In this document: positions 27,956 through 29,490 of the stretch, piece by piece
Layout: each line of letters starts with the position of its first letter
Position numbering within the stretch: position 1 is the stretch's first letter
Origin: Seonamhaeicola algicola
GTDB lineage: Bacteria > Bacteroidota > Bacteroidia > Flavobacteriales > Flavobacteriaceae
Assembly: GCF_007997385.1 (NCBI RefSeq)
Contig: NZ_VOSC01000012.1
Location: 310,001-374,000, forward strand
Reading direction: 5' to 3'
DNA: 64,000 nt
Translations under genes and position numbers: made by a program
The notes under the pieces: model-generated
Told to the model about the DNA's origin: nothing
Databases searched by the model: none
Seen by the model: the letters and a program-made list of their open reading frames with translations, nothing else

Positions 27956-28654
27956 ATGTTTGATGATATTTTAGCTGCTATCCCTTTTGGTATTGTACTT
28001 GCTTTTACAATTGGCCCTGTGTTTTTTGTACTTTTAGAAACCAGTGCCACAAAAGGCTTTAGAAGTGCCTTAATATTTGATTTAGGCGTTATTTTAGCCG
28101 ATGTTATTTTTATAATAATAGCTTTTTTTAGTACCAATAAATTGTTGGAAAAGGTAAAAGATGATCCTAATTTTTTAATTTTTGGTGGCGTACTTTTAAT
28201 AGTTTATGGGTTAATATCATTTATAAAAACTTCAAAATCGTTCAGAGAAATTGTTAGAGAATATCATAAAGTTGAAATAAAAAAAGGCTACGGAAAACTT
28301 TTTTTAAAAGGATTTCTTTTAAATTTTATAAATATTGGTGTGCTTTTAGGTTGGGTAGCTTTTATTGTTTTAGCAAATACGTTAACCGAATCTAAACAAG
28401 GTGTAGTAGTTTTTTTAAGTACTATTTTAGTAGTATATTTATTTGTTGATATTTTAAAAATTATAGTAGCAAAACGCCTTAAAAATAAACTCACACCACG
28501 TTTAATTTTTAAAACAAAAAAAATTGTGGCCTTAGTTATTTTAGGCTTTGGTATTTTACTATTAGCACAAGGTTTATTCCCTGAAGCTTATAATAAAAAC
28601 AAAGAAAAGCTTGAAGAACGTATTGAACCATTAAAAGAAAAGCTTCCAGGGTAA
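27956..28654 (+). CDS. LysE/RhtB-family exporter
   Basis: A 232-residue inner-membrane protein with about six hydrophobic segments. The N-terminal FGIVLAFTIGPVFFVL matches the LysE/RhtB signature (the GP in TM1), and a charged tail (KLEERIEPLKEK) ends it. The family exports amino acids or small metabolites; the substrate is not readable. It converges on the ubiquitin-T9SS gene with 39 bp between the ends. Confidence 0.85.
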   Translation: MFDDILAAIPFGIVLAFTIGPVFFVLLETSATKGFRSALIFDLGVILADVIFIIIAFFSTNKLLEKVKDDPNFLIFGGVLLIVYGLISFIKTSKSFREIVREYHKVEIKKGYGKLFLKGFLLNFINIGVLLGWVAFIVLANTLTESKQGVVVFLSTILVVYLFVDILKIIVAKRLKNKLTPRLIFKTKKIVALVILGFGILLLAQGLFPEAYNKNKEKLEERIEPLKEKLPG

Positions 28655-28693
28655 ACTGAAAGCTTTATTTATTTATTTATAAAATTAAAAATA

Positions 28694-29203
28694 CTACTTC
28701 TTTACAAATTGTGTTACATAGTTATTTAGTTTTAATAAGTACATACCACTTTTTAAATGTGCTATATTTATGTAGTTATTTGTTACATTGCTACTAGTTA
28801 TTTTTGTTCCTAAAACGTTATAAATAGTATAGGTTTTGTTTGCTGATGTGTCAGAAATGTACAAACGATCAATACAAGGATTTGGATATACAATTGTATT
28901 ATTTTTTTTAATTGTTAATGTATTTAAAGAAGAAACAATTAAATTAAGTGTACTTTCTTTTTGAATATTATAATCGGCAAGCGTTCTCCCGTCTTCAAGT
29001 TGTCTACCAGCAAAAATAAGTGTTTGATTGTTTGGATGAATACCTTCTTTATCCTGTATTTTAGCTTTAATATTTTCAACACTATCATTAGCTTCAACAT
29101 CTAAAGTAATAGTTTCACCAGACTCTAGCTTCACAAAAATTTGCATAGAAAACAGGTTAAAAGACATAAGAAGAAATAGAGATAAAGTGTAAAGTTTTTT
29201 CAT
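28694..29203 (-). CDS. Exported ubiquitin-domain protein with T9SS type A sorting tail
   Basis: A 169-residue protein in three parts. Residues 1-19 are a signal peptide whose predicted end falls exactly before ubiquitin Met1. Residues 20-95 align without gaps to eukaryotic ubiquitin: MQIFVK at the start, [22 protein letters not shown] and [10 protein letters not shown], 52 identities over the first 71 positions by hand count. Of the hydrophobic patch, Ile44 is kept, Val70 is Ile and Leu8 is Glu. Lys6, 27, 29, 33 and 63 are kept; Lys11 is Glu and Lys48 is Arg. The LRLRGG tail is absent (SSLNT instead), so diglycine conjugation is impossible. Residues about 103-169 (VYPNP ... YTIYNVLG ... GMYLLKL) are a T9SS type A tail. 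The fold and export are clear; host mimicry is inference. Confidence 0.93.
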
Positions 29204-29235
29204 GTGTTATTAATTGTTAGGGTTTATGTTTATTA

Positions 29236-29267
29236 TAAAAAAAACTTCCAGTTTAAAACTGAAAGTT
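29236..29267 (-). terminator. Terminator downstream of the tRNA-Cys pair (minus strand)
   Basis: On the minus strand AACTTTCAGTTT pairs with AAACTGGAAGTT (one T-G pair) and is followed by a run of eight T. It ends the tRNA transcript before the ubiquitin gene, whose ATG lies about 33 bp further on. No TAnnTTTG motif is visible between them. Confidence 0.6.
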
Positions 29268-29274
29268 TAATTGA

Positions 29275-29343
29275 GGCGTCGAATGGATTCGAACCACTGT
29301 ACCAGGTTTTGCGAACCTGTGCCTACCACTCGGCCACAACGCC
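29275..29343 (-). tRNA. tRNA-Cys-like (GCA), divergent copy with C33
   Basis: A 69-nt cloverleaf close to the upstream tRNA-Cys. The acceptor stem GGCGTTG/CGACGCC pairs (one T-G) and the T arm folds. The anticodon loop reads TCGCAAA, so the anticodon would be GCA but position 33, almost invariably U, is C. The D-loop is two nucleotides shorter than in the other copy. CCA is not encoded. It may be a degenerate duplicate and is perhaps not functional. Confidence 0.7.
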
Positions 29344-29419
29344 ATTTTAGTATTTTATTTCGTGCTATTAGTATTCTTGTGAGGGTAGAATCAAGAATAT
29401 AAATTTAAAAAAATCTAGA

Positions 29420-29490
29420 GGCGTCAAGCGGATTCGAACCGCTGTACCAGGTTTTGCAGACCTGTGCCTAAGCCACTCGGCCATGACGCC
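29420..29490 (-). tRNA. tRNA-Cys (GCA)
   Basis: A 71-nt tRNA. The acceptor stem GGCGTCA/TGACGCC is perfect, the D arm is GCC/GGC, the anticodon stem CAGGT/ACCTG carries loop CTGCAAA with U33 and anticodon GCA (Cys), and the T arm AGCGG/CCGCT has loop TTCGAAT. CCA is not encoded. Only 76 bp separate it from the divergent copy. A TTCTTG...CAAGAA inverted repeat lies upstream of each copy, so the whole unit looks duplicated in tandem. Confidence 0.92.

Follow-up and report, generated by a model that had tools for sequence, protein, structure and literature searches.

The window, by which we mean the whole stretch of 64,000 nucleotides from Seonamhaeicola algicola that was analysed, contains a small gene on the minus strand that runs intact from 29203 to 28694 and encodes 169 aa: a signal peptide, a ubiquitin domain and a T9SS type A sorting tail. 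A preliminary description of this DNA had proposed just such a secreted ubiquitin with a T9SS tail, without giving the strand, and the intact reading frame together with matches to PF00240 and TIGR04183 confirms it. The gene lies between a gene for a LysE-type transporter and tRNA-Cys, with folB beyond (Table 1). The nine neighbours were assigned by Pfam to RNase R, YbjQ, DUF2807, LysE, FolB, a Glu/Gln tRNA synthetase, Band 7 and cation efflux, with one unmatched, and PADLOC called none of the 10 proteins at the locus, the ubiquitin included, a defence protein.

Table 1. Features of the ubiquitin locus, with positions in the window
Feature	Position	Strand	Basis and remarks
LysE-type transporter gene; its 3' end is the insertion site	27956..28654	+	PF01810 LysE, 3.3e-19; in 7 of 7 genus genomes
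Left copy of 41-bp imperfect direct repeat (lysE end and the stretch after it)	28630..28670	+	Repeat search, 71%
Gene for signal peptide, ubiquitin and T9SS type A tail, 169 aa	28694..29203	-	ORF list, translation
T9SS type A C-terminal sorting domain, residues 105-169, stop codon included	28694..28891	-	TIGR04183, PF18962
Ubiquitin domain, residues 20-92	28928..29146	-	PF00240, PDB ubiquitins, AlphaFold2, Foldseek
Predicted signal peptide, residues 1-19, ending directly before ubiquitin Met1	29147..29203	-	Sequence, by eye; seven relatives
Right copy of 41-bp direct repeat, abutting tRNA-Cys	29232..29272	+	Repeat search; resembles lysE end adjoining tRNA-Cys in empty-site genomes and G003
Extra tRNA-Cys, 71 nt, 69 bp before the ubiquitin start codon	29273..29343	-	ARAGORN
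tRNA-Cys	29418..29490	-	ARAGORN

The signal peptide was judged by eye, residues 1-19 being hydrophobic with a Ser at -1, and its end point directly before ubiquitin Met1, as had been proposed, recurs in the similar stretches of seven relatives, these also judged by eye. The ubiquitin domain (residues 20 to ~91), which a short linker joins to the tail, matches PF00240 over residues 22-91 (2.9e-26; 91.5 bits against a Pfam gathering score of 25.4). At 52 of its first 71 positions it is identical to human ubiquitin (~73%), the same count as given in the preliminary description, and the low identity that was named there as telling against the proposal was not found; the alignment, said to be free of gaps over residues 20-95, is indeed ungapped but reaches only residue 90 or 91. 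An AlphaFold2 model built with 30 sequences has a mean pLDDT of 87.2; most of the ubiquitin part falls in blocks of 94-97, while the linker is loose. A Foldseek search of the PDB with this model returned ubiquitin chains, those with a single domain superposing at ~0.4 to 1.0 A over ~73 columns with 66-74% identity. The tail scores 39.6 bits with TIGR04183 over residues 105-169 (curated cut-off 23), which was the check asked of it, and 46.6 bits with PF18962 (Por_Secre_tail; cut-off 27, 4.3e-12). Among matches at E up to 10 the gene is the sole clear ubiquitin of its own genome; 24 of the other 26 matches extend into the tail, as this tail is common to many T9SS cargoes, and the remaining two are weak (E 0.047 and 0.46). 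The anatomy of the protein can thus be regarded as secure. It is also very unlikely that the gene is assembly contamination, the other outcome named as telling against it, since the source genome is rated 100% complete with 0.01 contamination, the contig that carries the gene is 669 kb or longer, and another genome of the genus (G003) has an orthologue at this very site.

The transporter gene is found in all seven genomes of the genus and the ubiquitin gene in two of them. In four (G001, G002, G005 and G006) the site is empty, a single tRNA-Cys and folB coming directly after lysE; G003 likewise has one tRNA-Cys, whereas the window has two. The lysE gene of G003 lacks its last codons, and a stretch that matches them adjoins tRNA-Cys on the far side. 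Between these displaced parts lie the ubiquitin gene and a 1459-bp element, which has inverted ends and an 8-bp target repeat and carries a transposase of the ISL3 type. In the window a stretch resembling the lysE end occurs on both sides of the gene, forming the direct repeat of 41 bp (71%). From these arrangements we infer that the end of lysE is a site that takes up foreign DNA and that the ubiquitin gene entered there, and a single insertion event is likely to lie behind both genomes that have it. The five genus genomes without the gene may have lost it or may never have had it, G000 being as close to G003 (0.770) as to G006 (0.771), or nearly so, over the DNA that was compared. In G004 the spot between lysE and tRNA-Cys is taken by three ORFs without a Pfam match (L110:2196-3550), and the site resembles an insertion hot spot of the genus. 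Base composition was tried as a signal of transfer and gave none, the GC content of the gene being 0.267 and that of the window 0.311, which places the gene at the 17th percentile of 510-bp stretches. The ubiquitin gene follows the doubled tRNA-Cys (29273-29490) on the same strand. A Bacteroidetes-type promoter motif was not found in the 220 bp upstream of the gene, and it may be transcribed together with the tRNA genes.

Relatives were sought in overlapping sets of 397 genomes of the family, 395 of the phylum, 395 of the order and seven of the genus, and the numbers of genomes with a match were 7 (own included), 6, 4 and 2 respectively. The tally for the order is that of the domain query; a full-length query was set aside for the domain because two of its six hit genomes had tail-only matches and at most nine candidates per genome were scored. 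Eight proteins are of the same build, namely those of the window, G003, G186, G127 (two), G025, G316 and G1096, spread over seven genomes, six genera and two families, and the tails of all eight pass the TIGR04183 cut-off. The remaining matches are built otherwise: those of G150 and G700 (two in the latter) are ubiquitins with a signal peptide but no tail, those of G288, G511, G582 and G703 are longer proteins, and that of G629 is an open frame of 199 aa. Around the T9SS-ubiquitin genes no neighbour gene is common to the genera compared, so no linked partner was seen, and among the neighbourhoods compared there was no conserved partner or immunity gene that would point to a target.

The tailless proteins of the Flavobacteriaceae (L078 of Flavobacterium sp. 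KJJ, that of G150 and the two of G700) belong to the same family and also have a signal-peptide-like stretch directly before the ubiquitin. They differ from the window protein in that TIGR04183 found no T9SS tail in any of the four scanned, and in the cysteine that stands at or near the end of the three compared, which end in LRC, SNPCP and RTPPCN; the second G700 copy ends in RKEM. Three tailless genes from two genomes (L078; L124:6893-7817) share a near-identical promoter-like stretch, TTG...TAAGTTTG, which starts ~60 bp before the start codon, and the two copies in G700 lie close together.

When the parts of seven of the eight T9SS proteins are compared, the ubiquitin is the most conserved, with a mean identity of 59% as against 50% for the signal peptide and 46% for the tail. 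Mean pN and pS are 0.25 and 0.59 in the ubiquitin part and 0.33 and 0.61 in the tail, values that demonstrate constraint but do not fix how strong it is, as many pairs are near synonymous saturation; the ubiquitin part is under purifying selection. It could be thought that the gene is a recently transferred passenger that drifts without function, or even contamination, given that it is absent from five of the seven genus genomes and sits at an insertion site. This would seem very improbable, as there are eight intact copies in six genera, non-synonymous change is below synonymous change in the ubiquitin part and the orthologue of the second genome is at the same site. The preliminary description had called for a tree of the domain, and in the tree made (92 rows, 72 columns) no branch is starred, whilst the seven T9SS rows, on long branches, require three label changes against a shuffled mean of 5.5 (17 of 500 shuffles as low). 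With no starred branch, long T9SS branches and three label changes, the tree was rejected as a readout of a single origin and of a donor alike; identity to eukaryotic ubiquitin is high, as had been expected, but the tree names no donor.

The source genome encodes SprA (2754.7 bits, cut-off 200), taken here as the sign of a T9SS translocon, and together with the score of the tail this makes export of the protein by T9SS very likely. Sec would export the protein, with removal of the signal peptide leaving ubiquitin Met1 as the N-terminus; it would then cross the outer membrane by T9SS and lose its tail, after which the ubiquitin domain would either stay on the cell surface or be shed. In its tail and in the presence of SprA it resembles any T9SS type A cargo, from which it differs in that the cargo is little beyond a ubiquitin domain.

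The preliminary description listed Leu8 as Glu, Lys48 as Arg and the LRLRGG end as missing, with Lys63, Ile44 and Lys6, 27, 29 and 33 remaining, all of which is borne out; to these can be added Lys11Glu, Arg42Thr, His68Asn, Val70Ile, Leu71Val and Arg72Ser. The chain continues past ubiquitin position 71 without a diglycine, lacking the LRLRGG of a conjugated modifier, and ends in FVKK without a C-terminal cysteine. Without the diglycine, conjugation through its own C-terminus is lost, so the earlier statement that the protein cannot be conjugated in this way follows from the sequence. The E2 family PF00179 has no match in the source genome, but control genomes were equally silent. In bacterial ubiquitination-like defence operons a ubiquitin-like gene lies beside genes for E1, E2 and a deubiquitinase. 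No such operon is found here, eight of the nine neighbours having other Pfam assignments and one having none.

The nearest published case that was found in the open-licence full-text literature is BfUbb of Bacteroides fragilis, other hits being reviews that mention it. In PMC5705921 and PMC3352274 BfUbb is presented as one of few eukaryotic-like bacterial ubiquitins, is 63% identical to human ubiquitin, has a signal peptide that ends at Met1, is found in some strains only, apparently without an immunity protein, and is required for the inhibition of some B. fragilis strains. It ends in a cysteine and not in a diglycine, and forms a disulphide with human E1 in vitro (PMC3352274). The likeness suggested earlier therefore holds: the window protein, of the same phylum, shares the signal peptide ending at Met1 (by eye), a eukaryote-type ubiquitin, the lack of a diglycine and a patchy distribution. 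Going by the published description of BfUbb, what sets the window protein apart is its T9SS type A tail, the lack of a C-terminal cysteine that could react with E1 and a worn Ile44 face (see below).

By analogy the window protein may be an antibacterial protein that acts like BfUbb, being secreted and inhibiting close relatives. The shared secretion signal up to Met1, the missing diglycine, the common phylum and the restriction of BfUbb to certain strains with no apparent immunity protein all agree with this, as does the occurrence of the window gene in only two of seven genus genomes. In the portions of the two papers at hand, though, a T9SS tail is not mentioned for BfUbb, whose mode of action was given as unknown in 2017, and its E1-reactive C-terminal cysteine has no counterpart in the window protein; in their terminal cysteine it is the tailless Flavobacteriaceae proteins that look closer to BfUbb. 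On balance we consider that the window protein is rather unlikely to act in this way.

The preliminary description held that the protein could bind ubiquitin receptors. The Ile44 face was taken as ten positions, that is Leu8, Ile44, His68, Val70 and neighbours, which were picked after the table of identity to human ubiquitin had been seen. In seven T9SS proteins identity to human ubiquitin is 88% in the core, 73% on the other surface and 36% on the Ile44 face, a value matched or undercut by only one of 5000 sets of ten positions drawn at random outside the core; for the strict four positions (8, 44, 68 and 70) the figure is 292 of 5000. The eighth T9SS protein (G1096), found afterwards, keeps none of the ten (4 of 20000 random sets as low) and the window protein keeps four (622 of 20000). 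G127a of the same group keeps seven, including all of the strict four, and a Carboxylicivirga protein with a T9SS tail (L030) keeps eight. By contrast the face is complete in three tailless proteins (L078, G150 and one of G700). These three are closer to human ubiquitin overall, with 57, 57 and 62 of 71 positions identical as against 41 to 56 in the T9SS group, and the divergent G511, outside that group (49 of 71), keeps three face positions, so the wear may in part follow divergence; G629 (55 of 71) keeps nine. The pattern of a worn face in T9SS forms and an intact one in tailless forms is good but not perfect. As the Ile44 face is the most worn region in the T9SS group, canonical receptor binding is unlikely; on the evidence of these residues the window protein probably does not bind canonical ubiquitin receptors, and the idea that it could is weakened both by the difference between this face and the other surface and by the complete loss in the eighth protein.

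Of the 419 stretches returned by a scan of named prokaryotic genomes, 262 encode a relative with a similar domain, and the best 80 of these 262 loci were kept for analysis. In 73 of these 80 there is a hydrophobic stretch within the 35 residues that precede ubiquitin Met1, with a small residue at -1, by a simple ad hoc rule that accepts A, G, S or C; in the clostridial L039, L041, L042, L046, L073, L080 and L082 cleavage is likely to fall a few residues ahead of this point. The seven that fail the rule are L014 (Thr at -1), L031 (cut off), L065, L015, L043, L045 and L049, the last four of which have no signal-peptide-like stretch and may include eukaryotic contamination. When 77 proteins (76 of the best 80, leaving aside those four, plus that of the window) were scanned for modules, an autotransporter was found in 17, a dockerin in 10, S-layer homology in 5, a T9SS tail in 5 (window included) and IPTL-CTERM in 4. 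Cultured sources among the best 80 include Ruminococcus albus, Saccharibacillus, Dyella, Malaciobacter and Carboxylicivirga, most of the remainder being MAGs, two of them archaeal (Methanotrichaceae). Comparison of 75 domains, the best 80 without those four and L034 (which has an insertion), revealed that they keep 59 to 70 of 71 human residues, with identity of 88% on the Ile44 face and 89% on the other surface, in a sample that leans to conserved domains because the best 80 are the top matches of an identity search; only four of the 75 keep a terminal diglycine.

These exported ubiquitins of other phyla share with the window protein the signal-peptide-like stretch followed by a eukaryote-type ubiquitin, and are unlike it in their autotransporter, dockerin, S-layer or IPTL-CTERM modules and in their largely retained recognition face. 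The earlier view that T9SS delivery is an independent use of the idea seen in BfUbb is right as to the likeness but understates the case, as exported ubiquitins with many surface modules occur in many phyla. No paper on exported ubiquitins with surface modules was found in the open-licence full-text literature, and no such class is mentioned in the portions of PMC10892293 and PMC11354881 available.

Several members of this class are of interest in themselves. In the Ruminococcus-type L042, L051, L074, L080 and L088, picked by eye, the ubiquitin is joined to dockerin-like sequences, and Dockerin_1 is matched by 10 of the 77 proteins scanned; such fusions suggest ubiquitin docked on cellulosomes. 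L053 of Dyella sp. OK004 has a signal-peptide-like stretch and then a ubiquitin that ends exactly at Gly76. The window domain has three matches among plasmid records, the one from Ruminococcus albus 7 at 74.6% and the others below 60%, and none among phage records. Two viral contigs, L112 and L134 (L133-L135 being the contigs of L112-L114), encode a ubiquitin with a signal peptide and, by eye, an IPTL-CTERM-like tail; that of L112 lies just upstream of the small and large terminase subunits, and L134 also carries terminase, portal and structural genes. Neither ubiquitin has a match in 50,697 phage records. A further viral contig with tail fibre and baseplate genes (L137:4811-5134; L111) encodes a signal-peptide ubiquitin that still ends in LRLRGG.

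The wider class bears on two further explanations. The window protein may mimic ubiquitin towards algae, protists or animals, whose ubiquitin receptors or enzymes it would bind. Its 73% identity to human ubiquitin, with Lys63, Ile44 and the Phe4 patch kept, is in keeping with this, and so is the recognition face that 75 other exported ubiquitins from the best 80 largely keep (88%); it is nevertheless unlikely, as Leu8, Arg42, Lys48, His68, Val70 (only to Ile), Leu71 and Arg72 are changed in the window protein and it is the recognition face that is the most worn region across the T9SS group. Alternatively the ubiquitin fold may be an inert and stable cap that helps a small T9SS cargo to fold or stay soluble and itself binds nothing, which could account for a core retained at 88% alongside a drifting face, and for an exported class that joins ubiquitin to many unrelated modules. 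There is nothing else to cap in the window protein, whose signal peptide and tail enclose only the ubiquitin and a short linker, and such a role seems quite improbable.

We put at about even the chance that an acquired eukaryote-type ubiquitin has here been turned into an extracellular ligand that is delivered by T9SS, cannot be conjugated and has a remodelled binding face, a reading that comes from comparison of sequences. The window gene would descend from a horizontally acquired eukaryote-type ubiquitin, and remodelling of the face would have given a stable extracellular ligand, the likely aim of which would be other bacteria or surfaces rather than eukaryotic ubiquitin machinery; a target outside the eukaryotic ubiquitin system is favoured.

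Ubiquitin is seen as a protein of eukaryotes, to which bacteria offer few exceptions, BfUbb being the one found to have been studied. The loci described above make near-canonical ubiquitin an exported module in many bacteria and in two archaeal MAGs, where its partners are surface-anchoring modules of several kinds. It is possible, and we suggest it only tentatively, that bacteria and archaea in general make use of eukaryote-type ubiquitin displayed on their surface, and that such display has arisen repeatedly with different anchors and been spread in part by phages. It would exist in two functional states: forms that keep the face would engage ubiquitin-binding proteins, whether eukaryotic or extracellular, and in the T9SS forms the fold would have been turned to a new target. 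The worn face of the T9SS forms set against the intact face of the tailless ones provides a natural experiment on the use of extracellular ubiquitin to bacteria, and the same contrast allows it to be asked whether BfUbb belongs to a wider class.
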